From: Pseudomonas sp. VD-NE ins
GTDB taxonomy: Bacteria; Pseudomonadota; Gammaproteobacteria; Pseudomonadales; Pseudomonadaceae
Direction: 5' to 3'
Length of the DNA stretch: 64,000 nucleotides
Assembly (NCBI RefSeq): GCF_031882575.1
Contig: NZ_CP134772.1
Coordinates: 6,632,055 to 6,696,054, forward strand
Shown here: piece by piece, positions 35,651 through 58,810 of the stretch
Layout: the number at the start of each line of letters is the position of its first letter
How positions within the stretch are numbered: the stretch's first letter is position 1
Notes under the pieces: model-generated
The model's database searches: none
Told to the model about the DNA's origin: nothing
Seen by the model: the letters and a program-made list of their open reading frames with translations, nothing else
Translations under genes and position numbers: made by a program

Positions 35651-36748
35651 ATGTTGCCTGTCTGTACGCCAGTTTCCCCGGCGGAACTGGAAGCGCGTCT
35701 GCGCCTGCACCGCTTGCCGGATGTCGGCCCCAAGCGGTTTATAAAATTGCTCGAAGCCTTTGGCTCGGCGTCGAAAGCCATCAGCGCGCCGGCCAGTGCC
35801 TGGCGCTCGTTGGGCCTGCCAGCGTCGAGTGCCGAAGCGCGCCGTTGTCCAGACGTGCGCGATGGCGCCAGCCATGCAATGCGCTGGCTAGAGCGCGCGG
35901 ATCAGCATTTGCTGATGTGGGACCAACCGGATTACCCGGCATTGCTGGCGCAGATTCCCGACCCGCCGCCCATGTTGTTCGTGGCCGGTGATCCGCTGAT
36001 TCTGGAAAAACCGCAACTGGCGATGGTTGGCAGCCGCCGCGCGTCGCGTCCGGGAATGGACACCGCAGCGGCATTTTCCCGCAGTCTCGCCGGGGCCGGT
36101 TTTGTCATCACCAGCGGGTTGGCGTTGGGTATCGATGCCGCTGCGCATCAGGCTGCTGTGGATGTTGGCGGGCTGACCGTGGGCGTACTCGGCACAGGAC
36201 TGGAAAACTTTTATCCACAGCGCAACCGGCGCTTGGCTGACGCGATGATTGCGTCCGGTAGCGCGGTGCTTTCGGAATTTCCACTGGACGCCGGGCCGAC
36301 CGCGAGCAACTTCCCGCGGCGCAATCGCATCATCAGCGGTTTGGCTCTCGGCGTGCTGGTGGTCGAGGCCAGCGTTGCCAGCGGATCATTGATAACGGCA
36401 AGGCTGGCGGCGGAACAGGGGCGCGAGGTTTACGCGATTCCCGGTTCGATCCATCACCCCGGCGCGCGCGGCTGCCACCAATTGATCCGCGATGGTGCGG
36501 TATTGGTGGAAACCATTGAACACATCCTCGAAGCACTGCGCGGCTGGCAGCATCTACCGTTATCCACTGACACGGCGAAAGTCGATCACCCGTTGCTTAC
36601 CCTGCTCCACGCCGCCCCGCACACCAGCGAGGGTTTGGCTGACAGCAGCGGCTGGGCGTTGCCCAAGGTGTTGGCGGCCCTCACCGAACTGGAAATGGAT
36701 GGCCGCGCCGTGAGTGAAAATGGCCGCTGGTTTGCGCGCGTGCGCTAG
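35651..36748 (+). CDS. dprA: DNA-processing protein DprA (Smf)
   Basis: It binds incoming single-stranded DNA and loads RecA during transformation, and is conserved even where competence is unproven. It has 365 residues. An N-terminal helix-hairpin region (LHRLPDVGPKRFIKLLEAFG) precedes the Rossmann domain, with AMVGSRRASRPG, SGLALGIDAAAHQAA and RNRIISGLALGVLVVEA. A C-terminal winged helix comes last. An exact DnaA box sits 48 bases upstream (35594) and another inside (36211). Confidence 0.95.
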   Translation: MLPVCTPVSPAELEARLRLHRLPDVGPKRFIKLLEAFGSASKAISAPASAWRSLGLPASSAEARRCPDVRDGASHAMRWLERADQHLLMWDQPDYPALLAQIPDPPPMLFVAGDPLILEKPQLAMVGSRRASRPGMDTAAAFSRSLAGAGFVITSGLALGIDAAAHQAAVDVGGLTVGVLGTGLENFYPQRNRRLADAMIASGSAVLSEFPLDAGPTASNFPRRNRIISGLALGVLVVEASVASGSLITARLAAEQGREVYAIPGSIHHPGARGCHQLIRDGAVLVETIEHILEALRGWQHLPLSTDTAKVDHPLLTLLHAAPHTSEGLADSSGWALPKVLAALTELEMDGRAVSENGRWFARVR

Positions 36749-36803
36749 GTTTTACAAGGAAGATCGGTAAACTGCGCGAAACCTGTTTGCGGAGAGTTTT
36801 TTC

Positions 36804-37361
36804 ATGGTTAACAGTTGGCGTGTGCAACAAGCCGCACGAGAGATTCGCGCCGGGGCGGTGATTGCCTATCCAACCGAAGCCGTCTGGGGGCTGGGTTGCG
36901 ACCCGTGGAATGAAGAGGCCGTGGATCGGTTGCTGGCGATCAAGAATCGTTCGGTGGTCAAAGGGCTGATTCTGGTTGCCGACAACATTCGCCAGTTCGA
37001 CTTCCTGTTCGAAGACTTCCCGCAAGAATGGATCGACCGCATGGCCAGCACCTGGCCGGGGCCGAACACCTGGCTGGTGCCACATCAGGGCTTGTTGCCG
37101 GAGTGGGTGACCGGCGTGCACGACACCGTGGCGCTGCGGGTCAGCGATCACCCGCAAGTGCGCGATCTGTGCTCGATGGTGGGGCCGTTGATTTCGACCT
37201 CGGCCAACCCGCAGGGTCGCCCGGCGGCGCGTACCCGATTGCGCGTTGAGCAGTACTTCCGTGGACGAGTGGATCTGGTGCTGGGCGGCAGCCTCGGTGG
37301 GCGGAAAAACCCGAGTGTCATCCGCGATCTTGCGACGGGGAAGGTCATTCGTCCCGACTGA
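36804..37361 (+). CDS. tsaC: L-threonylcarbamoyladenylate synthase TsaC (YrdC/RimN)
   Basis: It makes threonylcarbamoyl-AMP for the t6A37 tRNA modification. It has 185 residues, the short TsaC type. The signature [20 protein letters not shown], the [14 protein letters not shown] region and [13 protein letters not shown] are present. GGAGAG lies before the ATG. In P. aeruginosa the next gene is qor; here the five-gene cassette intervenes. Confidence 0.97.
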
Positions 37362-37386
37362 CCTTCTTTCGGTCTTATTCGTTTTT

Positions 37387-37418
37387 AAACTCCTCGACTG
37401 TATGGACGAGGAGTTTTT
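37387..37418 (+). terminator. tsaC terminator
   Basis: A 10-bp perfect stem (AAACTCCTCG at 37387-37396 with 37407-37416), a 10-base loop and five T lie 26 bases after the tsaC stop. It isolates the downstream cassette transcriptionally. Confidence 0.88.
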
Positions 37419-37631
37419 GCCTGCCTGTGATTTATTGGGTTCAGCTTCTACAACTTAAACAGTTTGTTGTTTATGTTGTTCTTCTGTGTGTCAGATAAAT
37501 CTATAAGTTAGAAGTTTCAGTAACTTTTCCCACGTCATTATCAGAAGTCGCGCAGTGGCGATATTCTCAAAAGCATCCATTATTTCAATGCGCTCAGAAA
37601 ACTTCGATAAGTTAACGTCTGCGGAGAAGGA
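37419..37631 (+). other. AT-rich leader of the five-gene cassette
   Basis: This 210-base gene-free stretch is clearly richer in A/T than its surroundings and must carry the cassette promoter. An inverted repeat with 6-base arms (AAGTTA at 37505-37510, TAACTT at 37521-37526) could be an operator. I could not pick a confident -35/-10 pair. The end carries the strong GGAGAAGGA ribosome site for the first gene. Confidence 0.5.
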
Positions 37632-38300
37632 ATGGATACTACGAACTTACAACTCAAGGATTATCTGCAGGGGCTTCAGGAGACTCTGAACAAGCAACAC
37701 GCTGATTATCGTATCGCTATTCTTGATACGGGAGCAGACACCCGCGAGTTTGAACAATTCATCGGCCGCCAGTTTCGTCTTCGACTCAAGCATTACATGC
37801 TGACGTCCAGAGCCCGGGCACTTGAAACAAGGTTGGCGATTTCATCGCGCAGCACACATTTTCTGCTGTACCAGCGCGATCAACTGACCGCGGTATTAAG
37901 AGTGACCCCTTCGCCGTTCGAGTGGGCTGCGCTGGCGCACCAGTATGTTTCTCCAACCGTGGCGCTGGCGCGCCATGTCGAATTCAGTCGCCTGATCACC
38001 CATTCACAACAACATCGGCCGGTGCCGATCAATGCGCTGCTTGCCGCCGCGACCGAATGGGCGATCGACTGCGGTTACCAGGGTGTTACCGCCTTGTGCA
38101 GGTCACCACAACGACGGCTGTTCCAGCGTTTCGGCCTGACCCCGATCACCTCCAACTCACTTCATATCGAGCATCGCGCTCGCGGTGATTACTGGCTGCT
38201 GTCTGCTGAATGGCGGCAAATCCTTACAGCGCTTCAACAACCCTTCCCCATGAACGCCAACCATCCGGAGAGTCGCGATGAATGCATCCGTCAGTTTTGA
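37632..38300 (+). CDS. GNAT-fold acyltransferase resembling autoinducer / N-acyl amino acid synthases
   Basis: A 222-residue soluble protein, first of a five-gene unit. The C-terminal half looks like the GNAT/autoinducer-synthase fold. HVEFSRLITHS (E117-F-S-R120) copies the conserved Glu-x-x-Arg pair of LuxI-type synthases. AATEWAIDCGYQGVTALCRS and QRRLFQRFGLTPI fit the acyl-CoA/ACP-binding and last beta regions. The LuxI tryptophan is not obvious, so it may instead be an N-acyl-amino-acid synthase relative. I infer transfer of an acyl group to an amine, with substrate unknown. The strong ribosome site GGAGAAGGA supports the start. It overlaps the next gene by 23 bases. Confidence 0.6.
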   Translation: MDTTNLQLKDYLQGLQETLNKQHADYRIAILDTGADTREFEQFIGRQFRLRLKHYMLTSRARALETRLAISSRSTHFLLYQRDQLTAVLRVTPSPFEWAALAHQYVSPTVALARHVEFSRLITHSQQHRPVPINALLAAATEWAIDCGYQGVTALCRSPQRRLFQRFGLTPITSNSLHIEHRARGDYWLLSAEWRQILTALQQPFPMNANHPESRDECIRQF

Positions 38301-39012
38301 ACAACAGTTGATCCTGCTTGATCAGCGAATCGAGAAAACATGGGCCGATATTCTGGATAACTCCCGGCTGGTCAAGGCGATTCGTGAGGGCAGTGTTTCC
38401 AGAGCGTTATATGCGATCTATATGATCGAGACCTTTCATTACACCGCACACAATGCACGAAACCAGGGTTTGGTCGGTGTCCGGCACGCCGATAATCCTG
38501 TTTATGCAAAGTTCTGTTTTGAACATGCGGCGCAAGAAGTCGGTCATGAAAAAATGGCCCTGCATGATGTCATGAGTCTGGGCTTGAAAAATGAGAACTT
38601 TGATATACCGCCGGCACTCCCTGAAACGGAAGTGCTGATCGCTTACTTGTACTGGATTTCCTTTACCGGTAATCCGTTACAACGGCTGGGATACAGCTAC
38701 TGGGCGGAAAACGCCTATCACTTCATTACTCCGCTGATCAACAGACTGAGTGAAACACTGGCGCTGAAGCCTGCTCAGTTGACGTTTTTCATCGCTCATT
38801 CAGATATCGATGTCGAGCACTTCAACGAAATCAAACTCATCTTGCAGCGTACCTGCAAGCGCCAGGTTGACTGGGATGCCGTTGCCACGGTGATGGAAAC
38901 CAGTCTGCGCCTGACCGGGAACATGCTCGAGGCAGTTTATGAGCAGTACGAGGCGTGGCAAAACGGCCTCGCCCCCCGCTACGAATTCCTCCATGCCCTG
39001 GATAACTCATGA
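38278..39012 (+). CDS. Heme-oxygenase-fold diiron oxidase / oxygenase candidate (HDO, TenA/PqqC-like)
   Basis: A 244-residue all-helical protein. By my count it has His174, Asp178 and His181 (HSDIDVEH), the Hx3Dx2H motif that binds iron in CADD, SznF and related enzymes. Further candidate ligands are Glu82/Glu87 and His90 (FEHAAQEVGHE) and Glu144 (YWAENAYHF). This predicts a nonheme diiron enzyme using O2 for N-oxygenation, C-C cleavage or desaturation. TenA and PqqC relatives lack the full metal set. GGAG precedes the ATG, which lies inside the previous gene. Base composition is lower in GC than flanking housekeeping genes. Confidence 0.75.
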   Translation: MNASVSFEQQLILLDQRIEKTWADILDNSRLVKAIREGSVSRALYAIYMIETFHYTAHNARNQGLVGVRHADNPVYAKFCFEHAAQEVGHEKMALHDVMSLGLKNENFDIPPALPETEVLIAYLYWISFTGNPLQRLGYSYWAENAYHFITPLINRLSETLALKPAQLTFFIAHSDIDVEHFNEIKLILQRTCKRQVDWDAVATVMETSLRLTGNMLEAVYEQYEAWQNGLAPRYEFLHALDNS

Positions 39013-39054
39013 TGCCTTCGCGTTCATTTTCTCGCCGCACAGGCGGAGGTGTGG

Positions 39055-40149
39055 ATGGCTGATTACTTCGAGCGGTTGAACTACGCGCTGGGGGATGAAG
39101 ACACGGCGCTCGAATACGCCATTCTGCCCGAGCACTCCAGGCACGTGTTGGGTGTTGCCGGCTGTGGTGGTCGACTGCTTCCGTTACTGGCCCGCTACCC
39201 GGCTCGCATGACTTGCGCTGATATCAGTGCGCCGCAACTGGCGTTTACCCGCCTGCGTTTTGCCCTGCTGGAGCAAACCGATCACCAGTCGTTTATGGAT
39301 TTCATGGGCTATCGGCCGGACACGTCAGTCACACGGCGCAAATCCATATTTCGCCTTCTGGACCTGCCCGCCCTTGATCGCCAATGGCTGGCGAACCTGT
39401 TTCATTCCCGTCATTGGCAAGCGCCGGTTTACCAGGGTGCCTTCGAGCAGACCCTGCAGCGGTTAGCGAAGGTCAATGGATTGTTCACCGGCAAGGCGGG
39501 TCGAGCGATTTTCCAGTTCCGCGACCTGGGTGAACAATCGGCTTATTACCGAAGGCACTTCCCCCACCGGCGCTGGAAGGCCGTGGTCGCATTGTTGGGA
39601 AATGCGGCGGTGCTCAACTCGCTGCTTTACCGGGGGGCATTTCCCCGCAACAACCTTGGAATCAGCTCCCGTGAGGCCTATCTGGGTCTGTTCCATACCT
39701 TGTTTACCACTCAGGTCGTGCGCGAAAGCTTTTTCCTGCAAATGCTGTTTTTCGGTGAACTGCGGTATTCGCAAGGCTTTCCGCTTGAGTGTGATCCGCA
39801 GCTTTTCCAACAAGCTCGCAAAGCGCTGCGGGAGTGCGAGTTGACGGTGGTGCAGGGCGATATTCTCGACTGCGTGGCCACCTGCAGGGACGTCGATTTT
39901 GTCTCGCTTTCCGACGTGCCTTCATTCCTGCCGGCAGAGGTCGGCACTGATGTTCTGCAGCGGCTCCGACCCGCTCTGGGCGAGGATGCACTGACAGTTA
40001 TTCGTGGCCACTTGCATGTGGTCAGGCCCGACTGTGCAGGGTTTTGCGACATCTCCGCTCAGTATCAGGAAGCGATCACACGAGAAAAAACCCAACTCTG
40101 GCGAGTACAGGTCTACCGCCAGACATCACCTGTGCAGGTATCTCGATGA
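39055..40149 (+). CDS. DUF3419 family SAM-dependent enzyme (BtaA-like)
   Basis: A 364-residue protein with a nucleotide-binding motif near the N-terminus (HVLGVAGCGGRLLPLLARYP, then CADISAPQL). A long helical insert and VDFVSLSDVPSFLP in the C-terminal part follow. It resembles DUF3419 proteins, whose studied members (BtaA) move the 3-amino-3-carboxypropyl group of SAM onto diacylglycerol to make betaine lipids. BtaB, the usual partner N-methyltransferase, is absent, so a different acceptor is likely. I use the ATG at 39055, with GCGGAGG 5 bases upstream. Its stop overlaps the next start as ATGA. Confidence 0.7.
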   Translation: MADYFERLNYALGDEDTALEYAILPEHSRHVLGVAGCGGRLLPLLARYPARMTCADISAPQLAFTRLRFALLEQTDHQSFMDFMGYRPDTSVTRRKSIFRLLDLPALDRQWLANLFHSRHWQAPVYQGAFEQTLQRLAKVNGLFTGKAGRAIFQFRDLGEQSAYYRRHFPHRRWKAVVALLGNAAVLNSLLYRGAFPRNNLGISSREAYLGLFHTLFTTQVVRESFFLQMLFFGELRYSQGFPLECDPQLFQQARKALRECELTVVQGDILDCVATCRDVDFVSLSDVPSFLPAEVGTDVLQRLRPALGEDALTVIRGHLHVVRPDCAGFCDISAQYQEAITREKTQLWRVQVYRQTSPVQVSR

Positions 40150-41414
40150 ATACGCCTCATCCGACCATCAATTGGGTCAAGAATCGTGTCCGTCAGGCGC
40201 GTGACGATCAGCAGCAATTGTTCGATGCCGGACTCAATGGCCTGAAACTGGAAAAGCGCGAAGGCAAGGTCATTGAGTTGGGCAGCGGCGAACAGCTAAC
40301 CGAATTTCTCTCATGCTCCTATCTTGGTCTTGAGAGCGACCCCCGGCTGATTCAAGGTGCAGTGCAAGCCGTCGAATCTTTTGGTGTGCAGTTCGCAGCC
40401 GCCCGGACCCGAGCGTTGCTGCCGCCGATGCGTGAACTTGATGAGCAATTGAACCGTATATTTCAGGGGCATACGGTGACTTTCAATTCGGTGGGCAGTG
40501 CCCATCTGGGGTGTCTGCCGCTGCTGGGTTCCGGTGAGCTGCCGTCGTATCCGTTGCGTCGTGGCCCAGGCTGGATCGTTGACCGCGCCGCCCATGCGTC
40601 GATGCAAGTGCTGCAAGGCATTCTGTGGCAGTTCGGCCCCGTGCAGCGCTGCGATTGCAGTGATCTGCAGCAAGTCGAAGACGCCTGTTCCACGGCAGTT
40701 GCTGCCGGCAATACGCCCATTATCCTGGCTGACAGCATTGGCTCGATGCGAGGGCTTTATCCCGTCAACCGGCTGCTGCAACTGGCTGAGCGCTTTGAGG
40801 GCTACCTGTATGCAGATGACGCTCACGGCACTTCGATTCATGGCGAGGCTGGGGGCGGTTATGCACTTGTTGCCGCCACTGAACCGTTGCGCAATCGCCT
40901 GATCCTGCTGTCGTCATTGTCCAAGGCCTTCGGTGCAACCGGCGGTGCGATTACCGTGCTGACAGCGGCCGATGCCGAGATGATTCGGCGCCATGCGTCG
41001 ACTTATACATTCGGTGGGCCACTGTCCATGGGAGGGGTCGGCGCGGCAGTCGTCTCGGCCAGGATCCATCTATCTGCACAGTTGGGCCGATTGCAGGCGT
41101 CACTTTGGCGAAATGTGGCGGTGATTGACGATCTGCTTGGGCCGCTGCTGGGCAACCATCAGATTGCTTCGCCCATACGTTTCGTCCGGGTTGGCGCCGA
41201 GCGGGATGCCATCCGTCTGGCGTTGCACCTGCGTCGGCATGCCATCGCAGTCACTACTGCCTTGTTTCCGGTGGTGGCCAAAGGTGAAGCGATCCTGCGA
41301 TTGGCCATCAGTGCCAATCACAGCCACGCTCAGTTGGAGCATCTGGCCAGCGCCGTCAACGACGGGTTCGCTGAATTGGGCATTCGTCAGGGAGAGCCGC
41401 GTCATGCGCCGTGA
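40146..41414 (+). CDS. Alpha-oxoamine synthase family PLP enzyme (BioF/KBL/CqsA-like)
   Basis: A 422-residue fold-type I PLP enzyme. The PLP lysine is K260 by my count in LSSLSKAFGATGG. ADDAHGTSIHG gives the ring-nitrogen Asp and partner His, and His150 in DRAAHAS is the ring-stacking residue. Family members condense an acyl-CoA (or acyl-ACP) with an amino acid or SAM-derived amine and lose CO2, giving an alpha-aminoketone. The setting beside an acyl-activating ligase and SAM-using enzyme, rather than bio genes, argues against biotin synthesis. The start ATG overlaps the upstream stop. Confidence 0.8.
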   Translation: MNTPHPTINWVKNRVRQARDDQQQLFDAGLNGLKLEKREGKVIELGSGEQLTEFLSCSYLGLESDPRLIQGAVQAVESFGVQFAAARTRALLPPMRELDEQLNRIFQGHTVTFNSVGSAHLGCLPLLGSGELPSYPLRRGPGWIVDRAAHASMQVLQGILWQFGPVQRCDCSDLQQVEDACSTAVAAGNTPIILADSIGSMRGLYPVNRLLQLAERFEGYLYADDAHGTSIHGEAGGGYALVAATEPLRNRLILLSSLSKAFGATGGAITVLTAADAEMIRRHASTYTFGGPLSMGGVGAAVVSARIHLSAQLGRLQASLWRNVAVIDDLLGPLLGNHQIASPIRFVRVGAERDAIRLALHLRRHAIAVTTALFPVVAKGEAILRLAISANHSHAQLEHLASAVNDGFAELGIRQGEPRHAP

Positions 41415-42726
41415 CCTGATGATGCATGCCAGTTCGGCGGGCGTTCACGCGGCAGCAACAGAGGCCTTCGCGAGTAAATTGGCCCATGCGCAGTCACTGT
41501 CATGGTTTTGCACGTTGTGTCCGCAGATTCGGCTGGTGCAGACGACGGAGGATCTGCATCGGCTGCCGATCCTGGCCGTGGAGGACGAACAGGGCGGATT
41601 GCTGTTTACCCGTCTCGGCGAAGCTTCACACCGTGCCTGTGGCGGCGGGCTGACCCTGACCTCGGGTGGTAGCACTGGTAACCGCAAGCACATCACCCAT
41701 TCCTGGGCTTTCAACGAAAGCATAGTGTCCCTGGGCGCGCGAATGTTTGCTGCGACCGATGAGCGTCCCGGTGTCGTCATCAATTGCCTGACGCCCGGCG
41801 AAATGCAGGGTGCTTTCCAATACGCGGCGGCCATCGTCCAGCACATCGGTGCGCGTCTGCTGCCTGCTGGCGCGCTGATGGGCATTCAGCGCATAGCCGG
41901 GTTGATTCATTCTCAAGCGGCCGATGCCCTGATCTGCACCCCGTCTTTTGCCGCGGCGTTGTTCAATCATGCCGATGTCGATGGGACGCAGTTGAGCAGT
42001 CTGAGATGGCTCTACTACATCGGCGAACCCTGCCGTCAGCCTTTACGCGAGCAACTGGCTCGGGACTGGCCGGCCCTGAACATACGATCATTGGGCTATA
42101 GCTCGACGGAGACCGGTCCGGTCGGTTTCCAGTGCGCGCACCTCGAACATGGTTTCTACCATCTGCATGCGGACGCCATGCTGCTTGAAGTGGTGGATCC
42201 GCTGAGCCTGCGAGCGGTGGCCGACGGTGAGTCCGGCGAGTTTCTGCTGACACCTTTACTGCCCGATCATGTGCCGTTGCTGCGGTATCGCATTGGCGAC
42301 CGTGGGCGAGTCCTGGGCAGGCAATCAACGTGTGCCTGTGGCAGCGCGCTGCCCATACTGGAGCTGGAGGGGCGCGTCGAGACTTCGATCAAGCTGGGTG
42401 GTGCGATCATCACTCAGGGTCAGGTTCTGAGCGTGCTCGCGGAGGCATTGCCTGCACTGCACGCTTCGGATGTGCAGGTGCAGATTGTTCGACAGGTCGA
42501 TGGTGCGCATATACGGCTTGTCATCGCTCGGGAGCGATTGCCGGCCGGTGCAGAACGCGTCATCGAAGAGGCTTTGCGCAACGAGGCGCAGGCGAGTGCA
42601 TTGCTTGGATTGCCCGGTGTGCTGGGCTTGCAGGTACGGCGTCTGCCTCGGTGTGACTTCGAAACCACCGTGGCCGGCAAAACACCGTTCTTTGCTGAGG
42701 CGCGAGGCGGCCCGGGCAAGTCATGA
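41404..42726 (+). CDS. AMP-forming acyl/aryl ligase (phenylacetate-CoA ligase-like)
   Basis: A 440-residue adenylate-forming enzyme. The ATP loop is LTSGGSTGNRKHITHS (about residues 85-100), GYSSTETGPVGFQC is the A5-like motif, and LLRYRIGDRGRVLGR includes the conserved Asp. A cysteine pair in STCACGSALP is typical of PaaK-type ligases. It should activate a carboxylic acid as acyl-AMP and pass it to CoA or a partner, possibly feeding the oxoamine synthase. The start ATG lies 11 bases inside the previous gene, with GGGAGAG upstream. It is the last gene, convergent with qor 35 bases on. Confidence 0.78.
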   Translation: MRRDLMMHASSAGVHAAATEAFASKLAHAQSLSWFCTLCPQIRLVQTTEDLHRLPILAVEDEQGGLLFTRLGEASHRACGGGLTLTSGGSTGNRKHITHSWAFNESIVSLGARMFAATDERPGVVINCLTPGEMQGAFQYAAAIVQHIGARLLPAGALMGIQRIAGLIHSQAADALICTPSFAAALFNHADVDGTQLSSLRWLYYIGEPCRQPLREQLARDWPALNIRSLGYSSTETGPVGFQCAHLEHGFYHLHADAMLLEVVDPLSLRAVADGESGEFLLTPLLPDHVPLLRYRIGDRGRVLGRQSTCACGSALPILELEGRVETSIKLGGAIITQGQVLSVLAEALPALHASDVQVQIVRQVDGAHIRLVIARERLPAGAERVIEEALRNEAQASALLGLPGVLGLQVRRLPRCDFETTVAGKTPFFAEARGGPGKS

Positions 42727-42761
42727 CGACTCGTCCGGGTGCTTCGTTGGCTGGCTACGTG

Positions 42762-43739
42762 TCAGGGCAACAGGACGGTGGAACCGGTGGTACGTCGCGC
42801 CGACAGTTCGGTTTGCGCCTTCGCCGCATCGGCCAGTGGATAACGCTGGCTGATGTCCACTTTCAACTTGCCGCTGATGATCATTTCGAACAATTCGTTG
42901 GCCATCCGCTGCAGGTTCTCGGCATTGTTGGCATAAGTCGCCAGCGTCGGTCGGGTCACGTACAGCGAGCCCTTGGCGGAGAGAATCCCCAGGTTCACGC
43001 CGTCTACCGCACCAGAAGCATTACCGAAGCTCACGACCAGGCCGCGTGGCGACACGCTGTCGAGGGAAGTCAGCCAGGTGTCCTTGCCGACACCGTCATA
43101 AACTACCGGGACTTTCTTGCCGTCGGTCAATTCCAGCACGCATTGCGCAACATTTTCGTGGCTGTAATCGATCGTCGCCCAGGCACCATTGGCCTTGGCC
43201 AGTTCGGCTTTTTCTTTGGAACTGACGGTGCCGATCAGCTTCACGCCCAAGGCCTTGGCCCACTGACAGGCCAGCGAACCGACACCACCGGCCGCCGCGT
43301 GGAACAGAATGGTTTCGCCACCCTTCAACTCATAGGTCTGGCGCAACAGATATTGCACGGTCAGGCCTTTGAGCATCACCCCGGCAGCCGTTTCGAAACT
43401 GATTTCGTCGGGCAGGTGCACCAGATTGTCCTGGGGCAGCACATGCAATTCGCTGTAGGCCCCCAACGGGCCGCTGCCGTACGCCACGCGATCACCGACC
43501 TTGAACCGGGTCACGTCGCTGCCCACGGCATCAACCACGCCTGCACCTTCCGCACCCAGGCCGGACGGCAAGGCCGGCGGCGCATACAGACCGCTGCGGT
43601 AATAGGTGTCGATGAAGTTCAGGCCGATCGCCTTGTTGGCCACGCGCACTTGATTCGGGCCGGGTGCGGCGGGTTGGTAATCAACATATTCGAGCACTTC
43701 GGGGCCGCCGTGGGCGCGGAACTGGATACGCTTTGCCAT
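42762..43739 (-). CDS. qor: NADPH:quinone oxidoreductase
   Basis: A 325-residue zinc-less medium-chain dehydrogenase/reductase that reduces quinones with NADPH. GLNFIDTYYRSGLY and GAEGAGVVDAVG are family blocks, and HAAAGGVGSLACQWAK is the NADPH-binding loop. No catalytic-zinc cysteines are seen. It is divergent from hemF with 150 bases between. In P. aeruginosa it directly follows tsaC. Confidence 0.95.
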   Translation of the reverse strand: MAKRIQFRAHGGPEVLEYVDYQPAAPGPNQVRVANKAIGLNFIDTYYRSGLYAPPALPSGLGAEGAGVVDAVGSDVTRFKVGDRVAYGSGPLGAYSELHVLPQDNLVHLPDEISFETAAGVMLKGLTVQYLLRQTYELKGGETILFHAAAGGVGSLACQWAKALGVKLIGTVSSKEKAELAKANGAWATIDYSHENVAQCVLELTDGKKVPVVYDGVGKDTWLTSLDSVSPRGLVVSFGNASGAVDGVNLGILSAKGSLYVTRPTLATYANNAENLQRMANELFEMIISGKLKVDISQRYPLADAAKAQTELSARRTTGSTVLLP

Positions 43740-43793
43740 CTGCCTGCTCTCCTTGGGTCTGTTGTGAGCCCCCTATCCAACTCCCATGCTTGA

Positions 43794-44804
<1,011 letters not shown>

Positions 44805-44813
44805 GGATTTTTG

Positions 44814-45635
44814 ATGGATCGTTACGTCGTTTTCGGTAACCCGATCGGCCACAGCAAATCGCCGCTGATTCACAAGCTGTTCGCCGAACAGACCGGCCAG
44901 AGCCTCGACTACAGCACGCTGTTGGCGCCGCTTGATGATTTCGCCAGCTGCGCCACGGCGTTTTTCCAGGAAGGTCGCGGTGCCAACGTGACCGTGCCGT
45001 TCAAGGAAGACGCCTATCGTCTGGCCAACAGTCTGACCGCCCGCGCACAAAGGGCCGGCGCGGTGAACACCTTGAGCAAACTGGCTGATGGTTCATTGCT
45101 CGGTGACAACACCGACGGCGCCGGGCTGGTGCGTGATCTGACAGTGAACGCCGGGTTCAGCCTGACGGGTAAACGCATCTTGCTGCTTGGCGCCGGTGGC
45201 GCAGTTCGTGGGGCGCTGGAGCCGTTGCTGGCGGAACAACCGGCCTCAGTCATCATCGCCAATCGTACAGTGGACAAGGCTGAGTTGCTGGCGGAGTTGT
45301 TCTGTGACCTGGGGCCGGTGTCGGCCAGTGGTTTCGACTGGTTGCGTGAGCCGGTGGACGTGATCATCAACGCCACATCGGCGAGCCTGACCGGCGATGT
45401 ACCGCCGATTGCGCCGAGCCTGATCGAGCCGGGCAAGACCCTGTGCTACGACATGATGTACGGCAAGGAACCGACGGCGTTCTGCCGCTGGGCCAGCGAA
45501 CATGGCGCGGTAGTGTCGATGGATGGCTTGGGGATGTTGGCGGAGCAGGCCGCTGAGGCGTTTTACTTGTGGCGCGGCGTGCGCCCGGACACCGCGCCAG
45601 TACTCGCCGAACTACGCCGCCAACTGGCGCAATAA
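44814..45635 (+). CDS. aroE: Shikimate dehydrogenase (NADP+)
   Basis: It reduces 3-dehydroshikimate in aromatic amino acid synthesis. It has 273 residues. The substrate site [28 protein letters not shown] with the catalytic Lys, [13 protein letters not shown] for NADP, and [12 protein letters not shown] are all present. I chose the ATG at 44814 (GAGGA 7 bases upstream) over the adjoining TTG. Confidence 0.98.
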
Positions 45636-45643
45636 ATTCCCAT

Positions 45644-45730
45644 GTGGGAGCGAGCCTGCTCGCGAAAGCGGTCTGTCTGACACATCAATGTTGGCTGTGC
45701 CGCAGTCTTCGCGAGCAGGCTCGCTCCCAC
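45644..45730. repeat. REPIN (GAGCGAGCCTGCTCGC class)
   Basis: Arms 45644-45666 and 45708-45730 are inverted copies with a 41-base spacer, of the same class as 30060. It sits between the convergent aroE and sulP stops. Confidence 0.9.
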
Positions 45731-45751
45731 AAGGATTACCTCTATTGCCAA

Positions 45752-47320
45752 TCAATCCTCAAACCGGATCGGGCATTTTTCCGGCCCTTCCAGCTTCCTC
45801 AACTCCTCCATCACCTGCGGTCGCGCGCGGCGCAAGGTCAGGCTGCGATCCTGGCTCAATAACCGCCGCGCCTCCTGATGCAGCATCTCCACCCCTGAAT
45901 AGTCGATGAAGTTTATCTGCTGCGCCTCGATCACCACCCGCGCGCCGTGCAGGCGTTGCAGGCGCACCTGCAGGTAGTGGCTGGCGCCGAAAAAGATCGA
46001 CCCGCCTACGCGCAAAATATCGTCCTCGCCGTCGCGCCAATGCTGCACGCGCGGTTGCGAGGTGCGCTTGAGATAGAAAAAGAGCGAGGCCAGCACCCCG
46101 GCATAAATCGCCGTTTGCAATTCCAGCAGCAACGTTGCCAGGCAGGTCAGGGCCATGACCACGAACTCGGCGCGGCTGACACGTAGCAAGGCGCGAATCC
46201 CGCGATGATCGACCAGGCCCCAGGCAATCAGCAGGATGCTGCCCGCCATCGCCGGAATCGGAATGTGCGAAATCAGCCCTGCGCCGAAAATCGCAAACAA
46301 TGCCACCCAAATCGCTGAAAACACCCCGGCCAGCGGCGAGCATGCGCCCGCTTCGTAACTGAGGCCCGAACGGGTAAACGAGCCTGCCGACAACGATCCG
46401 GAAAAGAACGCCCCGACGATATTCGACAAGCCCTGCGCGCGGACTTCCTGATTGGCATCGAGCAATTGCTGCGAGCGTGCCGAAATCGAGCGGGCAATCG
46501 ACAGACTGGTAACCAACCCGAGCATGCCCACTGCGACGGCGCTCGGCAGCAGGCGCAAGATCAAATCCAGATCCAGCGGCAACGCACTGAACGGCGGCAA
46601 CCGTCCGACAAAAGCGCTGACCAGATGCACATGGCCGAACATCGCCGGCCACAGCCACACCAGCAGACTGGCCAGAGCGAGGGTTATCAACAACGTCGGC
46701 CAGCGCGGCAGTAATTGTTTCAACATCACACCGACGATCACCGTCGCCACACCGAGGACCAAAGAAGGTTTATCCACAGCCCGGAGGTGTTGCAGCAGAT
46801 CCATAAGACTCGCCAGCGCCGTAGCTTTGGCCGGCAACTCCAGCCCCAACAGGTTCGGCAATTGCCCGATGGCGATCACCACTGCGGCACCAAGGGTGAA
46901 CCCCAGCACCACCGAGTGCGAGACGAAGTTCACCAGCGCGCCGAAACGCAGTAAACCGAGCAGCCACTGGAAAATTCCTGCCAGAAACGTCAGCAACAAG
47001 ATCAGGGTGATGTAGTCCTGCGATGCCGGGACCGCTAAGGGACTGACGCTGGCAAACAGCACAATGGAAATCGCTGCCGTCGGGCCGCAGATCAAATGCC
47101 ACGACGAACCCCACAGGCAGGCAATCAGCACCGGGATGATTGCGGCATAGAGGCCGTATTCAGGTGGGAGACCGGCGATCAGCGCGTAGGCAATCGACTG
47201 GGGTAACGCGAGAATTGCGCCGCTGAGGCCGACGATCAGATCCCGTCCTACGCTGGCGCGGCTCTGCCGCGGTAGCCAGGTGAGGAAGGGCAAGAGAGAG
47301 TGGCGGCTGGGGAAGGCCAT
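45752..47320 (-). CDS. SulP family inorganic anion (sulfate) transporter with STAS domain
   Basis: A 522-residue protein with about a dozen membrane segments. The SulP signature GLPPEYGLYAAIIPVLIACL is near residue 50. A cytoplasmic STAS domain forms the last 110 residues (VGGSIFFGASHYLQVRL, INFIDYSGVEMLHQ). Its position next to choline sulfatase matches the PA0029-PA0031 arrangement of P. aeruginosa and suggests handling of sulfate released from choline-O-sulfate. Bicarbonate or another anion is also possible. Confidence 0.85.
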   Translation of the reverse strand: MAFPSRHSLLPFLTWLPRQSRASVGRDLIVGLSGAILALPQSIAYALIAGLPPEYGLYAAIIPVLIACLWGSSWHLICGPTAAISIVLFASVSPLAVPASQDYITLILLLTFLAGIFQWLLGLLRFGALVNFVSHSVVLGFTLGAAVVIAIGQLPNLLGLELPAKATALASLMDLLQHLRAVDKPSLVLGVATVIVGVMLKQLLPRWPTLLITLALASLLVWLWPAMFGHVHLVSAFVGRLPPFSALPLDLDLILRLLPSAVAVGMLGLVTSLSIARSISARSQQLLDANQEVRAQGLSNIVGAFFSGSLSAGSFTRSGLSYEAGACSPLAGVFSAIWVALFAIFGAGLISHIPIPAMAGSILLIAWGLVDHRGIRALLRVSRAEFVVMALTCLATLLLELQTAIYAGVLASLFFYLKRTSQPRVQHWRDGEDDILRVGGSIFFGASHYLQVRLQRLHGARVVIEAQQINFIDYSGVEMLHQEARRLLSQDRSLTLRRARPQVMEELRKLEGPEKCPIRFED

Positions 47321-50157: not shown

Positions 50158-51108
50158 ATGTATGAAGCCTTGGGTGATCTGTCGCTCGACCTGCTCCGCG
50201 CGTTCGAAGCGGCGGCTCGGCAGCGCAGTTTTACTGCGGCCGCGGTTGAGCTTGGCACCACGCAACCGGCGATCAGCCAGCAGATCAAACGGCTGGAAGA
50301 ACAGCTCGGCACGCGGCTGTTTGACCGAATCTACCGAGGCATCGAACTGACCGAAGTCGGCGCGATACTGTTTGAGCAAGTTTCCTTAGGTTTGCAGAAT
50401 ATCGACGCGGGATTGAGCGCGATCAGCGCACAACAGCAGCATGAGGTGCTGCAAGTCGCCACCGATTTTGCCTTCGCCGCTTATTGGTTAATGCCACGCT
50501 TGCACCGTTTTCACCAAGCCAATCCGCAGGTTGACGTGAGCCTGGTGACCAGCGAACGCAACCACAACATGCTGCGCACCGACATCGATGTGGCGATCCT
50601 GTTTGGCGATGGGCGTTTTAAACAGGGCGAAAGCCATTGGCTGTTCAGCGAAGAAGTATTCCCGGTGTGCAGTCCGCAGTTGCTCAAGGATCGCGCCCTG
50701 CCCCTGCCTGTTCAGGCGTTACTGGAGTTTCCGTTGTTGCACCTGCGCGGGGAAAACAGCAGCAACTGGTTTGACTGGAGTGGTCTGTTCCGTGAACTCG
50801 GTATCAATACACCGCCAGCGCCGGGGCAATTGCGCTTCGACAATTACACGCTGTTGATTCAAGCGGCGATTGGCGGCCAAGGCGTGGCGATTGGCTGGCG
50901 CCACCTTGTGGATAACTTGCTGAGTCAGGGGTTGCTGTGCCGACCCATTGCCGAAACGACCCTGTCGCGCCTCGGTTATTACGTCGTGCTGCCGCAACGC
51001 AAACGTCGGGGCGCGCTGATTCAGCAGTTTGTCGATTGGTTGATGGCGGAACAGGCGAGCAGTGCTGAGTCGCTTAATGGACTCGCACTGCCTTCGATCG
51101 CGGTTTGA
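50158..51108 (+). CDS. betR: LysR-family regulator of choline-sulfate utilisation
   Basis: A 316-residue LysR transcription factor. The N-terminal winged helix has SFTAAAVELGTTQPAISQQIKRLEEQLGTRLF. The co-inducer domain follows (ATDFAFAAYWLMPRLHRF, DVAILFGDGRF). It is divergent from betC-choX, the classic arrangement for a regulator of that operon, and matches PA0032. The inducer is presumably choline-O-sulfate or choline. It contains an exact DnaA box (50907). Confidence 0.85.
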   Translation: MYEALGDLSLDLLRAFEAAARQRSFTAAAVELGTTQPAISQQIKRLEEQLGTRLFDRIYRGIELTEVGAILFEQVSLGLQNIDAGLSAISAQQQHEVLQVATDFAFAAYWLMPRLHRFHQANPQVDVSLVTSERNHNMLRTDIDVAILFGDGRFKQGESHWLFSEEVFPVCSPQLLKDRALPLPVQALLEFPLLHLRGENSSNWFDWSGLFRELGINTPPAPGQLRFDNYTLLIQAAIGGQGVAIGWRHLVDNLLSQGLLCRPIAETTLSRLGYYVVLPQRKRRGALIQQFVDWLMAEQASSAESLNGLALPSIAV

Positions 51109-51113
51109 AAGTC

Positions 51114-51187
51114 AAAAGATCGCAGCCTGCGGCAGCTCCTACATCTGGAACGCGGTCCCCTGTAGCTGCCGAAGGCTGCGATCTTTT
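51114..51187. repeat. REPIN (GATCGCAGCC class)
   Basis: Arms 51114-51142 and 51161-51187 are inverted and of the same class as 20735. The right arm runs into the TAA stop of the leftward gene that follows, so the repeat end supplies part of that stop codon. Confidence 0.85.
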
Positions 51188-51851
51188 ACGAATCTGCAGC
51201 CGCCACGAAATTCACATGCTGACCCACATGCAGATTCAACCGCAGCTCATCAGCAATCCCCACCGCCACGCGGTTCAAACGCTCCAGCGGTTCGGCCAGA
51301 CCCGGTTCGAGATTGCCGCCAACCTGACTGAAATGCTCAATGGTCAGCCCGGCCACACCGTGCGGCGCATTCACCAGCGTCCAGTGCAGCGGGCTGCTTT
51401 GCACGGCTTCGAGAATTTCTTCGGCGGCATGGCGTTGCAGGCGATCATCGACATCCGGCTCATCGAGCACGGCAAAATCCCCCACCAGAAACAGCCGCGA
51501 AACATTGGCCGCTTGCAGGCCATCGACCAACGCGTCGACGGCCAACACCTGCTCGACCGGGCCGAGCACGACCGAGCGTTCCACATGATCGCTGCTGAAC
51601 GGCAAGCCCGGCGCATCCAGTAAACAGATGACCGCCGAGCTGCCCGCCACACTCTGATTGACCCGCTCCAGATCGAACAGATCGCCCGTTTTGGTGCGCA
51701 AGCCAGGACGCGGCGCCAGTGCGGTCAAATCGTCGAGAATGGCAATGACTTCATGCTGACGGCGCAGCAATTCAGCCATCAACGCGCTGCCCAGGCTACT
51801 CATGGCACCATAGAGCACCACTTTTACCGCCGGGGTTTCGGCATTTTTCAT
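51186..51851 (-). CDS. NAD(P)-binding Rossmann-fold protein (NmrA/SDR-like)
   Basis: A 221-residue protein with an N-terminal dinucleotide loop VVLYGAMSSLGSALMAELLRR (GxxxxxG spacing) and an atypical SDR layout (SSPLHWTLVNAPHG). It is the kind often annotated as NAD-dependent epimerase or NmrA-like. The substrate is unknown. Its stop overlaps the end of a REPIN. It is divergent from the DOPA-dioxygenase-like gene. Confidence 0.7.
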   Translation of the reverse strand: MKNAETPAVKVVLYGAMSSLGSALMAELLRRQHEVIAILDDLTALAPRPGLRTKTGDLFDLERVNQSVAGSSAVICLLDAPGLPFSSDHVERSVVLGPVEQVLAVDALVDGLQAANVSRLFLVGDFAVLDEPDVDDRLQRHAAEEILEAVQSSPLHWTLVNAPHGVAGLTIEHFSQVGGNLEPGLAEPLERLNRVAVGIADELRLNLHVGQHVNFVAAADS

Positions 51852-51933
51852 GGCTGATCCCTTTTGTTATCCCTTGTATGGCGTGTGACATACGGGCAAC
51901 GCCGAGGGTTCGAACCGATTCAGAGGCTTTCAG

Positions 51934-52260
51934 ATGCAAGCGATCAAGGGTTACCACGCCCACGTCTATTTCGACGCCGGCACCATCGAGCAGGCGCGGG
52001 CCTTGTGCGAGCAGGCTGCGCAGTTGTTTGCGTTGAAGATGGGCCGGGTTCACGAGCGCCCGGTCGGGCCGCATCCGGACTGGAGTTGCCAGTTGGCCTT
52101 CGGCCCTGAGCTGATCGGTGATGTGCTGCCATGGCTGGCGCTCAATCGCAAAGGCCTGGTGGTGTTTCTGCACCCGGACACGGGGGATGATTTGCTCGAC
52201 CACACCGAGCATGCGATCTGGATGGGAGCGATTCGGCCGCTGAATCTGTCTGTTTTCTGA
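51934..52260 (+). CDS. DOPA 4,5-dioxygenase family protein
   Basis: A 108-residue protein matching the small DOPA-4,5-dioxygenase-like family. GYHAHVYFD near the N-terminus and HERPVGPHPDWSCQLAF carry the conserved histidines, followed by GLVVFLHPDTGDDLLDHTEHAIWMG split over the C-terminal half. Fungal homologues cleave catechol rings in betalain synthesis, but the bacterial role is unknown. Its stop directly abuts the stop of the convergent GFA gene with no spacer. Confidence 0.85.
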   Translation: MQAIKGYHAHVYFDAGTIEQARALCEQAAQLFALKMGRVHERPVGPHPDWSCQLAFGPELIGDVLPWLALNRKGLVVFLHPDTGDDLLDHTEHAIWMGAIRPLNLSVF

Positions 52261-52662
52261 TCAGATCGTTTCTTCGGCTTCGCCCGGCAAATGCTCGTCC
52301 AGATGCAGCCAGGGCAATTGGCTGTCGGTCCAGATATGTCGCTCGGCCGGCGCCAGTTGCGGCTGATCAAGAGTAGCGATGGTCACGTCGATGCTCTCGG
52401 GGCTGAGTAATGTCACCAGCGTCAGTTGCGCGCCGCAGTTCGGGCAGAAGAACCGCGCGCAACTGGCCGACGAGTCATAGCGCGACGGCGCCGCGGCCAG
52501 CCACTGGAAATTTGCCGCCGGCACGGTGATCCATGTGGTGACGATGCCACCGCTGACTCGGCGACAAATCGAACAATGGCAATGGGCGATATCCTGCAAC
52601 GCCCCGCTGAACTGATAACGAATGTGTCCGCAGTGGCAGCCGCCGCTGTGCAATTCGCTCAT
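52261..52662 (-). CDS. GFA-family zinc-binding protein
   Basis: A 133-residue glutathione-dependent formaldehyde-activating-like protein. Zinc-binding cysteines are seen in GGCHCGHIRY, AHCHCSICRRVSG and FFCPNCGAQL. The family includes many proteins with no proven activity on formaldehyde. I chose the ATG at 52662 (MSELHSGGCHCG), which has GGAGGG upstream. Confidence 0.88.
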   Translation of the reverse strand: MSELHSGGCHCGHIRYQFSGALQDIAHCHCSICRRVSGGIVTTWITVPAANFQWLAAAPSRYDSSASCARFFCPNCGAQLTLVTLLSPESIDVTIATLDQPQLAPAERHIWTDSQLPWLHLDEHLPGEAEETI

Positions 52663-52985
52663 GGTCAAAGCCCTCCTTCCCGCGTTCATTGACTCTGATT
52701 AGCATCCGACGACCGGTTGACCGTTCACCCAAAGCTTTCTTCAGCGAAAGGTAGCTGAAAGCTTCCCCGATTAGCATCGCCTCCACTTCCGGCAACAGAC
52801 CGGTTGGCCAACGCGTGTGATACCTCGCACGAACGGCCCAATTAACAACAACAATGGTGATTCTGATGTCCTCTGTAGCCCGCCTTTGCGCTGTCCCTCC
52901 GCCCGTACGTCTCGTGCTTCCCGTTCTGCGCTGATCCCACTCGATCTGCTCATCTAACTAGCCGCGCTACGCCTGGAGTATTCCC
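52663..52985. other. Intergenic region before the CitMHS transporter
   Basis: This stretch holds the divergent promoters of the GFA gene and the transporter. I see GATTAGCATC twice (near 52698 and 52770) and an imperfect hairpin (AAGCTTTC at 52732, GCTGAAAGCTT at 52754). A 22-codon frame at 52866-52934 lacks a ribosome site and I do not call it a gene. Confidence 0.4.
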
Positions 52986-54293
52986 ATGCTGACTTTCCTT
53001 GGCTTCGCCATGGTCATCACGTTCATGTTCCTGATCATGACCAAGCGCCTGTCCGCGCTGATCGCTCTGATCATCATCCCGATTGTCTTCGCCCTGTTCG
53101 GCGGTTTTGCACCGAAGATCGGTCCGATGATGCTCGAAGGCATCACCAAGCTCGCGCCGACTGGCGTGATGCTGATGTTCGCCATTCTCTATTTCGCCCT
53201 GATGATCGACTCCGGCCTGTTCGACCCGGCCGTGCGCAAGATTCTCAAACTGGTCAAGGGCGACCCGCTGAAGGTTTCGGTCGGCACCGCCGTACTGGCG
53301 CTCGTCGTTTCCCTCGATGGTGACGGCGCGACCACTTACATGATCTGCGTGGCCGCCATGCTGCCGCTGTACAGCCGCATTGGCATGAGCCCGCGGATCA
53401 TGGCCGGTCTGATCATTCTCGCCGGTGGCGTGATGAACATGACCCCGTGGGGTGGCCCGACTGCCCGTGCCGCGAGTGCGTTGCATGTCGACCCGTCGGA
53501 CATTTTCGTGCCGATGATCCCGGCGATGGCCGCGGGCGTGGTGGCGATTCTGCTGATCGCTTATTTCTACGGTAAACGTGAACGTGCGCGTCTGGGTGAG
53601 CTGCATCTGGCCGGCGACGAGATTGATCACAGCGAAATCAGCGTCTCGCAATTCCCCGATGCCCGTCGTCCGAAACTGATCTGGTTCAACGGCGCACTGA
53701 CCTTCGGCCTGATGTGCACCCTGATCGCCGGCCTGTTGCCGTTGCCCGTGCTGTTCATGGTCGCGTTCAGTATTGCCATGATCGTCAACTACCCTTGCCT
53801 GCAGATGCAGAAGGATCGCGTCGCCGCTCACGCCGGCAGCGTGCTGGCAGTGGTCGGGCTGATCTTTGCGGCGGGTATCTTCACCGGTATCCTGAGCGGC
53901 ACCGGCATGGTCGATGCGATGTCGAAGAGCCTGTTGGCAGTGATTCCGGATTTCCTCGGCCCGTATCTGGCCGTGATCACGGCGCTAGTGAGCATGCCGT
54001 TCACCTTCTTCATGTCCAACGATGCGTTCTACTATGGCGTGTTGCCGGTGTTGGCCGAAGCCGCCAGCCACTACGGGATCACCGCAGTGGAAATGGCCCG
54101 TGCCTCGATCGTCGGTCAGCCCGTCCACTTGCTGAGCCCGTTGGTGCCATCGACGTATCTGTTGGTAGCCCTGGCTGGCATCGATTTCGGTGACCACCAG
54201 CGTTTCACCCTGAAATGGGCGATCCTGGTTTGTATCTGCATCCTGATTGCTGCACTGCTGTTGGGGACTTTCCCGGTGTTCAGCACTCTATAA
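52986..54293 (+). CDS. CitMHS family citrate/H+ (metal-citrate) transporter
   Basis: A 435-residue protein with about 12 membrane helices, starting MLTFLGFAMVITFMFLIMTK. Signature regions are SLDGDGATTYMICVAAMLPL, GGVMNMTPWGGPTARAA, FFMSNDAFYYGVLPVLAE and GQPVHLLSPLVPSTYLL. CitMHS proteins import citrate complexed with Mg2+ or Ca2+ by proton symport. The exact organic acid is not assignable. GGAG precedes the ATG, and no regulator is adjacent. Confidence 0.9.
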   Translation: MLTFLGFAMVITFMFLIMTKRLSALIALIIIPIVFALFGGFAPKIGPMMLEGITKLAPTGVMLMFAILYFALMIDSGLFDPAVRKILKLVKGDPLKVSVGTAVLALVVSLDGDGATTYMICVAAMLPLYSRIGMSPRIMAGLIILAGGVMNMTPWGGPTARAASALHVDPSDIFVPMIPAMAAGVVAILLIAYFYGKRERARLGELHLAGDEIDHSEISVSQFPDARRPKLIWFNGALTFGLMCTLIAGLLPLPVLFMVAFSIAMIVNYPCLQMQKDRVAAHAGSVLAVVGLIFAAGIFTGILSGTGMVDAMSKSLLAVIPDFLGPYLAVITALVSMPFTFFMSNDAFYYGVLPVLAEAASHYGITAVEMARASIVGQPVHLLSPLVPSTYLLVALAGIDFGDHQRFTLKWAILVCICILIAALLLGTFPVFSTL

Positions 54294-54313
54294 GCCCAAG
54301 ACTCACCGTTTCG

Positions 54314-54349
54314 GGTCCTGGCTTCGCGGTTTGAAGCCCGGACCTTTTT
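54314..54349 (+). terminator. Terminator after the CitMHS transporter
   Basis: A 12-bp stem with one mismatch (GGTCCTGGCTTC region 54314-54325 paired with 54333-54344), a 7-base loop and TTTTT lie between the transporter stop and terC. Confidence 0.85.
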
Positions 54350-54378
54350 CGGTTTAACAATCGCTCAAAGGAATACAC

Positions 54379-55146: not shown

Positions 55147-55176
55147 CCCGGTAGTCCAGACGCACGCAATACCCCT

Positions 55177-55264
55177 GTGGGAGCGAGCTTGCTCGCGAAG
55201 GCTTCGTGTCAGTCGACAGAAATGTTGGCTGGCCCACCGCTTTCGCGAGCAGGCTCGCTCCCAC
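55177..55264. repeat. REPIN (GAGCGAGC class)
   Basis: Arms 55177-55199 and 55242-55264 are inverted, differing at one central base (TTGCTCGC versus CTGCTCGC core). It lies just after terC. Confidence 0.9.
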
Positions 55265-55299
55265 ATTTGTTTGTGCAACGTTCAGGCACTGCGGACCTT

Positions 55300-57237: not shown

Positions 57238-57289
57238 ACGTCTGGGGTTAAGGTCAGTCAGTAACACAGAGTTCAGCCTCAAGGGCCTC

Positions 57290-57362: not shown

Positions 57363-57414
57363 GGGGTCCTGACTGACGACACGGATCTCCAAATCAGCCG
57401 TACGGAAGCCTGTT

Positions 57415-58806: not shown

Positions 58807-58810
58807 TCCT

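Follow-up and report, generated by a model that had tools for sequence, protein, structure and literature searches.

What is made by the five adjoining genes that lie between tsaC and qor in Pseudomonas sp. VD-NE ins, and does the set recur in other bacteria? The stretch of DNA analysed, hereafter the window, comprises 64,000 nucleotides (contig NZ_CP134772.1, positions 6,632,055 to 6,696,054) and forms the end of a 6.7-Mb genome assembled as one contig. The cassette encodes, in this order, a GNAT acyltransferase, a heme-oxygenase-like dimetal oxidase (HDO), a DUF3419 protein related to BtaA, an alpha-oxoamine synthase and an AMP-forming ligase. We consider it moderately probable that this is a conserved Pseudomonas operon making a small acylated amine without a nonribosomal peptide synthetase (NRPS). 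It would allow an HDO clade so far uncharacterised to be studied within a short and conserved pathway, in culturable Pseudomonas. The enzyme families are all known, but their combination, the HDO clade and an association with the S-adenosylmethionine (SAM) decarboxylase family SpeD in relatives appear to be undescribed within the open-access literature searched, where none of the matches listed described the five-gene set; subscription papers and outside preprints were not covered by this search.

A five-gene cassette at a single site in Pseudomonas

An HDO alignment was used to scan 84,980 species, which gave 25 loci (14 in Pseudomonas and 11 elsewhere), and the Pseudomonas loci examined numbered 30 (16 plus 14), or 24 distinct genomes after removal of six duplicates that were identical over 3 kb. 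All five genes were present, in the same order and between tsaC and qor, in all 30. An earlier reading of this DNA, made without database searches (the sequence-only reading), had proposed to look for such co-occurrence and is borne out, whereas its expectation of a recurring block in varied locations is not supported, since in Pseudomonas the site is one and the same in all 30 loci. Where the cassette is absent, qor lies 42-303 bp from tsaC in 13 of 14 Pseudomonas loci, and the 1.5 kb fetched from the remaining one (L139) did not contain qor. Compared with most Pseudomonas, the cassette is therefore an insertion between these two genes, as had been claimed, although the claim had named P. aeruginosa, which was not identified among the cassette-less loci. 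The presence of five genes at one site in 30 of 30 loci, together with the adjacency of tsaC and qor otherwise, points to one old, selected operon. Both the gene layout and the conserved co-occurrence agree with the earlier proposal of a single transcription unit, and we conclude that the five genes are one predicted co-transcribed operon.

The cassette is sparsely distributed. Of 398 genomes of the genus, 17 had the DUF3419 gene, as did 4 of 57 relatives, the window genome being counted in both cases. In an even, class-wide sample of 369 genomes the cassette was not found outside the window genome; there were 12 weak DUF3419 matches, and the five of these loci that were fetched matched none of the five proteins (tblastn). 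The best other HDO match in these 369 genomes was 32% identical, and the best ligase match outside the window genome, among 229 class genomes, was likewise 32% identical. Plasmids with a match to the oxoamine synthase at 1e-30 numbered 166, and the other four genes were absent from the three records opened.

In 29 of 30 loci, none of the five genes has an internal stop within its aligned span, which for the ligase excludes up to 17 N-terminal residues in some loci; stops at ligase codon 434, seen in six loci, represent an earlier end of the gene. The exception is P. anatoliensis (L084), where codon 63 of the HDO gene is a stop. The HDO of P. iridis (L074) carries a Gln in place of the candidate ligand H90 as well as a five-residue insertion, and the two loci form a pair in trees, in which the oxidase is apparently in decay. 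The P. iridis locus also has dprA matches in two frames (7372-8462), possibly due to a frameshift or an assembly error.

Trees of the cassette and of its flanks, built for 25 genomes, contained the same large groups by eye; however, only 6 of 22 splits were identical and there were 17 conflicting pairs of well-supported splits, so that simple vertical descent was rejected. A mobile cassette was rejected because of the identical site in all 30 Pseudomonas loci. We read this pattern as one old acquisition, probably followed by descent with local recombination and loss. A phage origin was rejected, as there was no PHROGs match, no DUF3419 tblastn match in 50,697 phage records, and none of 21 pattern matches in viral contigs was confirmed. 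An anti-phage role was rejected because PADLOC gave no match.

Enzyme families of the five proteins

The first protein passed the curated cut-off of no Pfam family, including that of FeeM, and showed no match to Acetyltransf_5 (OlsB-type). Structure comparison did place it within the LuxI/FeeM fold: the first Foldseek rows were the acyl-homoserine lactone (AHL) synthases MesI, BjaI and RpaI, and VIA-align gave FeeM the top Z score, with TofI tied within 1 unit and TofI and LasI among the best rows. This agrees with the earlier description of gene 1 as a GNAT protein with an autoinducer-synthase-type fold. The FeeM cut-off (27) was passed by HDO-adjacent relatives from Aestuariibacter (L075, 27.3) and Agarilytica (L146, 35.0), and the GNAT proteins of loci L056, L058, L076 and L079 remained below it. 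An Arg-Ser pair at positions 73-74 is conserved in the family and seemingly sits where AHL synthases have acidic SAM-site residues.

The second protein scored 62.9 bits with Haem_oxygenas_2 (cut-off 28.9) and 254 bits with PDB entry 3dde, a solved structure that is named merely as a domain of unknown function. HDO ligands follow the spacing E-x2-H, E, H-x3-D-x2-H, and the candidate ligands E87, H90, E144, H174, D178 and H181 were kept in 15 of 16 aligned proteins, the exception being that of P. iridis. Three histidines and three carboxylates are the usual HDO ligand set according to section 4 of PMC13108848, which describes a rapidly expanding class in which roughly a dozen enzymes have been functionally validated. 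The six-ligand set and the Pfam score support the earlier view of gene 2 as a diiron candidate with a heme oxygenase fold, and we regard its product as a putative diiron-type oxidase of an uncharacterised HDO clade.

The third protein passed the Pfam DUF3419 cut-off (65.4 bits versus 28.2), so that its assignment as a BtaA-like SAM enzyme stands. It shares this family and a SAM-binding fold with the betaine lipid 3-amino-3-carboxypropyltransferase BtaA, but is strongly diverged, scoring 64.8 bits, where the 29 best matches among 398 genomes reach 327-395 bits. The YxQIWEDP and DAQDWM-type stretches of canonical members, which we take to be BtaA, are replaced by NYxLGDED and SDVPSF in the cassette protein. 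Judged by these differences, it is a divergent BtaA-like enzyme and not BtaA.

The oxoamine synthase scored 396.6 bits with NCBIfam PRK07505 (cut-off 342) and fell below the cut-offs of BioF (137.9 of 426) and of the autoinducer synthase PRK07179 (46.5 of 428). Its SLSKAFG motif occurs in all 30 Pseudomonas loci, and K260 is presumably the lysine that binds pyridoxal phosphate (PLP). The ligase passed only the general AMP-binding model (Pfam, 44.2 bits); it matched PaaK-type ligases in the PDB with up to 71.5 bits, did not reach the cut-off of the PaaK equivalog TIGR02155 (50.5 of 646 bits), and has a TSGGSTG loop in all 30 Pseudomonas loci. The families predicted for genes 4 and 5 are supported. 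As had also been noted, there is no transporter, regulator or NRPS among the five proteins (Pfam, NCBIfam).

Related gene clusters outside Pseudomonas

A relative of the GNAT protein was found near the HDO gene in 9 of the 11 non-Pseudomonas loci, eight by tblastn and the Aestuariibacter locus by blastp and the FeeM Pfam model; the two misses were a locus with masked bases near a contig end (L061) and one in which the contig ends inside the HDO gene (L083). DUF3419 genes were present in four of the 11 (L061, L068, L075 and L076), and relatives of the window oxoamine synthase and ligase were detected in none (tblastn, E 1e-4). This nested distribution, with GNAT-HDO innermost, then DUF3419, then ligase and oxoamine synthase, suggests that amide formation and oxidation are the core, and that DUF3419 is the next layer and the ligase and oxoamine synthase a Pseudomonas layer.

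Outside Pseudomonas, the most complete version of the pathway is apparently that of the Aestuariibacter locus. Here, GNAT, HDO and DUF3419 genes are followed (11855-19778) by closely spaced or overlapping frames for four proteins. The first two are of the HlyD type and of the AcrB exporter type (492.6 bits); the third is an AMP-binding ligase (137.4 bits) that shows no significant similarity to the window ligase, and the fourth a penicillin-amidase-family protein (475.7 bits) whose nearest PDB chain is a D-succinylase (103 bits). A Deefgea piscis plasmid carries GNAT, HDO, DUF3419 and speD genes in a row, and Deefgea and Trinickia have related serine hydrolases of the beta-lactamase fold family downstream of the core. 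The Trinickia hydrolase is nearest in the PDB to 8rlj and to 6-aminohexanoate-dimer hydrolases, enzymes that cut amides. A candidate amide hydrolase is therefore present in three of five non-Pseudomonas DUF3419 loci, and a complete exporter pair in one; the Pseudomonas block has neither type of gene.

In loci of the Bdellovibrionota type, of which one or two examples were tested, an FkbM methyltransferase and a fatty acid desaturase passed their Pfam cut-offs, and aldehyde-decarbonylase-like and hexapeptide proteins stayed below theirs. Two loci (L081, 1192-2826; L082, 9005-10639) contain an FkbM methyltransferase-HDO fusion in one frame of 544 amino acids, Pfam having been run on L081 only. 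The FeeM-passing GNAT gene of the Agarilytica plasmid adjoins an HDO gene.

A possible switch between SAM and decarboxylated SAM

In three of the five non-Pseudomonas DUF3419 loci (Deefgea, Corallococcus and Trinickia), the cluster includes a SpeD gene, and all three proteins exceed the AdoMet_dc cut-off. Four of the five genomes with these DUF3419 loci, in assemblies of unstated completeness, were searched for SpeD. The search found two copies in Corallococcus, one of them at the cluster, one in Trinickia, at the cluster, and one in the Lysobacterales genome that is located elsewhere. The Aestuariibacter genome, with Gly36 in its DUF3419 protein, gave no SpeD match, and the window genome has a single SpeD, far from the cassette.

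In the DUF3419 alignment, the three SpeD-linked proteins have Asp, and all 16 others Gly, at column 36, which belongs to the glycine-rich loop that follows the first strand; column 80 (Phe/Tyr) is the sole other column that separates the two groups as cleanly. The 14 canonical DUF3419 members read in frame have Ser at column 36, three wrong-frame rows having been left out. In spermidine synthases, an Asp in a corresponding loop favours decarboxylated SAM. From this parallel and the Asp36 of the SpeD-linked proteins, aminopropyl transfer is predicted for the latter and aminocarboxypropyl transfer for Pseudomonas. Asp36 as a switch to decarboxylated SAM remains suggestive, because the three Asp proteins resemble one another. 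If correct, the Gly/Asp reading would give a precise prediction of how BtaA-like enzymes choose between the two donors. SpeD homologues can also be ornithine or arginine decarboxylases, according to PMC10407285, and the clustered copies may have such an activity instead of supplying decarboxylated SAM.

SpeD relatives also precede an annotated radical SAM gene on a Glaesserella plasmid (L192, 1336-4834) and a Xenorhabdus plasmid (L191, 5896-11198), with 43.5% and 48.9% identity, respectively, to the Trinickia cluster SpeD. One of these plasmids has a P450 and an MFS transporter, the other speF, and the loci are possibly other pathways that consume decarboxylated SAM.

Proposed pathway and alternatives

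In the pathway that we propose, the PaaK-like ligase would activate a carboxylic acid as AMP or coenzyme A (CoA) ester, and the oxoamine synthase would condense an acyl-CoA with an amino acid, with loss of CO2, to an alpha-amino ketone, the two enzymes supplying a Pseudomonas-specific acyl or amino-ketone part. The GNAT protein, with its FeeM/AHL-synthase fold, would form an amide from an acyl-CoA or an acylated acyl carrier protein and an amine derived from an amino acid, and the HDO would oxidise the N-acyl product, desaturation or oxidative decarboxylation being the likeliest reactions. The BtaA-like enzyme would transfer the 3-amino-3-carboxypropyl group of SAM, or, in the SpeD-clustered relatives, the 3-aminopropyl group of decarboxylated SAM. 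The most likely product is an amphipathic amide that acts outside the cell or in the envelope. The sequence-only reading had put acylation by the GNAT protein last; its role as acyltransferase is kept, but the order is not, since GNAT acylation followed by oxidation is the likelier core. In relatives, the acyl amide may serve as a temporary cap and be cleaved off once the product has been exported, an idea based on the exporter and amidase genes (Aestuariibacter) or amide-hydrolase-like genes (Deefgea, Trinickia) that adjoin the core. More tentatively, the loci could belong to a hitherto unrecognised multi-phylum pathway family in which a LuxI/FeeM-fold acyltransferase is paired with a diiron HDO, the acyl cap is perhaps removed by an amidase after export, and a BtaA-fold enzyme switches donor (Gly36 for SAM, Asp36 for decarboxylated SAM with a dedicated SpeD) outside polyamine metabolism.

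The kinship of the DUF3419 protein with BtaA raises the alternative of a membrane aminolipid, for which the GNAT protein and oxoamine synthase would build a long-chain backbone and DUF3419 would add a homoserine-like head, giving a structural lipid retained in the envelope. In its favour, there is no exporter among the five genes; a fatty acid desaturase, an FkbM methyltransferase and a sub-cut-off aldehyde-decarbonylase-like protein lie near GNAT-HDO in Bdellovibrionota-type loci (L079 tested); and aminolipid pathways begin with N-acyltransferases according to PMC11631085. We nevertheless regard this alternative as unlikely, as the five genes include no O-acyltransferase or BtaB-type methyltransferase (Pfam, NCBIfam), the GNAT fold groups with FeeM and AHL synthases and lacks an OlsB-type match, and the DUF3419 protein is far from canonical members. 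Moreover, a gene in so few genomes of the genus would be unusual for a structural lipid, and the amidase-type and exporter genes of relatives point to a released product.

The Foldseek and VIA-align rows could also be taken to mean that the GNAT protein is an autoinducer synthase acting on SAM or an aminocarboxypropyl compound, with the other enzymes decorating a quorum-type signal, and a PaaK-type ligase could supply an aryl-CoA, as in RpaI-type systems. FeeM, however, had the top VIA-align Z score (if barely, given the TofI tie), the Arg-Ser pair seemingly replaces the acidic residues at the SAM site of AHL synthases, and no luxR-type gene was recognised among the open reading frames (ORFs) of 35.5-45 kb, the only part searched, which makes such a signal somewhat less probable still than an aminolipid. 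That PaaK-like ligases are common in catabolism would fit a degradative or detoxifying operon, in which an environmental compound is activated as an acid and acylated. The remaining families speak against it: HDO, oxoamine synthases and BtaA-like transferases are mostly anabolic, and there is no beta-oxidation, ring-cleavage or uptake protein among the five (Pfam, NCBIfam), so that we give this explanation very little weight. A small acylated amine remains our preferred product.

Comparison with known systems

The pvf and mgo clusters are small Pseudomonas operons with an HDO. The mangotoxin operon mboABCDEF (PMC13185094) resembles the cassette in the same way, but MboA and the window HDO match with 17 bits only, and neither an NRPS nor an ATP-grasp amino-acid ligase, one of which would be expected in a mangotoxin, pvf or mgo cluster, is found among the five proteins (Pfam, NCBIfam). 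The sequence of N-acylation and then oxidation has a characterised precedent in the tyz cluster (PMC10404671), which shares with the cassette an N-acyltransferase beside an oxidase, a small NRPS-free layout and a likely acyl-amide product. It uses a flavin oxidase and a ThiF homologue, in contrast to the diiron-type HDO, BtaA-like transferase, oxoamine synthase and PaaK-like ligase of the cassette.

Two further clusters show a partial resemblance. Plasmids of the P. syringae group (two opened of 23 Pseudomonas records) have a ligase-GNAT-HDO row; in one of these loci (L058), a PaaK-type ligase, a GNAT-like protein and an HDO (34.7% identical) stand in a row, but FMN reductase, EamA transporter, hydrolase and divergent anthranilate synthase genes are present and no DUF3419 or oxoamine synthase is annotated. 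The whole row (3390-11132: ligase, GNAT, HDO, FMN reductase, EamA, hydrolase) is divergent from the anthranilate synthase pair and a LuxR gene, and is putatively another HDO pathway. In Pseudoalteromonas (L148), an AMP ligase and an HDO, fused to each other, adjoin a gene of the T_hemolysin family, which we take to be akin to LuxI/FeeM; here the HDO is about 21% identical, a short-chain dehydrogenase/reductase (SDR) is present, and no DUF3419 or oxoamine synthase is annotated in the stretch.

A conserved region upstream of the operon

The 113 bp directly upstream of the first gene, which were absent from the sequence-only reading, share 85-96% identity with the nine loci to which the window was compared, versus 51-74% for the remaining intergenic DNA and 42-69% for HDO fourfold sites, the L074 value of the latter being out of register due to its insertion. 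The region occurs only once in the genome, where other matches span at most 30 bases with E > 1. A riboswitch or leader RNA was rejected, as the Rfam search gave no match at gathering scores, the folding z score was -0.52 and compensatory pairs were lacking. A short upstream reading frame noticed by eye within the block is made improbable by single-base indels in L062, L064 and L067. A promoter scan listed one site, on the minus strand, fewer than in shuffled sequences. We read the region as a probable promoter/operator.

Layout and composition of the locus

The features are listed in Table 1. The ORF coordinates reproduce exactly the five genes, their order and the junctions reported before, i.e. 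an overlap of 23 bases, a gap of 42, and overlaps of 4 and 11. The terminator after tsaC, which had been named as the upstream boundary, was read directly from the sequence, as its loop exceeds the limit of 8 in the automated scan; its arms are retained in the relatives compared, altered yet still pairing in L062. Position 37419 is the first base past it, and the first codon of the cassette is at 37632. Upstream of the cassette are the presumed dprA and tsaC genes, and downstream the presumed qor (opposite strand), hemF and aroE, named in part after the sequence-only reading; relatives have the same neighbours.

Table 1. Features of the cassette and its upstream boundary, in window positions
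Feature	Position	Strand	Basis
Rho-independent terminator after tsaC	37389..37418	+	Inverted repeat 37389-37396/37407-37414 (8-bp arms, loop 10), T run
Conserved 113-bp control region (candidate promoter/operator), directly 5' of operon	37519..37631	+	Sequence identity
GNAT-fold acyltransferase, FeeM/AHL-synthase-like, 222 aa	37632..38300	+	Foldseek/VIA-align fold comparison
Heme-oxygenase-like dimetal oxidase (HDO), 244 aa	38278..39012	+	Pfam, PDB match, ligand columns
DUF3419 (BtaA-like) SAM-dependent transferase, 364 aa; loop A35-G36-C-G-G, D56	39055..40149	+	Pfam
PLP-dependent alpha-oxoamine synthase, 422 aa	40146..41414	+	NCBIfam PRK07505; SLSKAFG motif
PaaK-like AMP-forming ligase, 440 aa	41404..42726	+	Pfam AMP-binding; TSGGSTG loop

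The cassette had been called poorer in GC, which is true of genes 1 and 2 (55.4% and 50.3%); genes 3 to 5 have 57.9%, 59.6% and 61.5%, the cassette as a whole 57.9% and the window 59.0%. The reported absence of DnaA 9-mers from the cassette was confirmed, as there are none within 36219-46770, but it does not mark the cassette, since 50915-64000 is equally devoid of them. The DnaA-box-like sequence TTATNCACA occurs at 37 sites on both strands of the window, all within positions 2301-50915, against 0.64 expected for the window from shuffles. Genome-wide there are 206 sites, versus 54 for a reversed control pattern, and the window, which is 1% of the genome and its end, holds 18% of them. The first 100 sites listed extend to 5.6 Mb, and the stretch from 2.5 to 4.4 Mb has only three of them.

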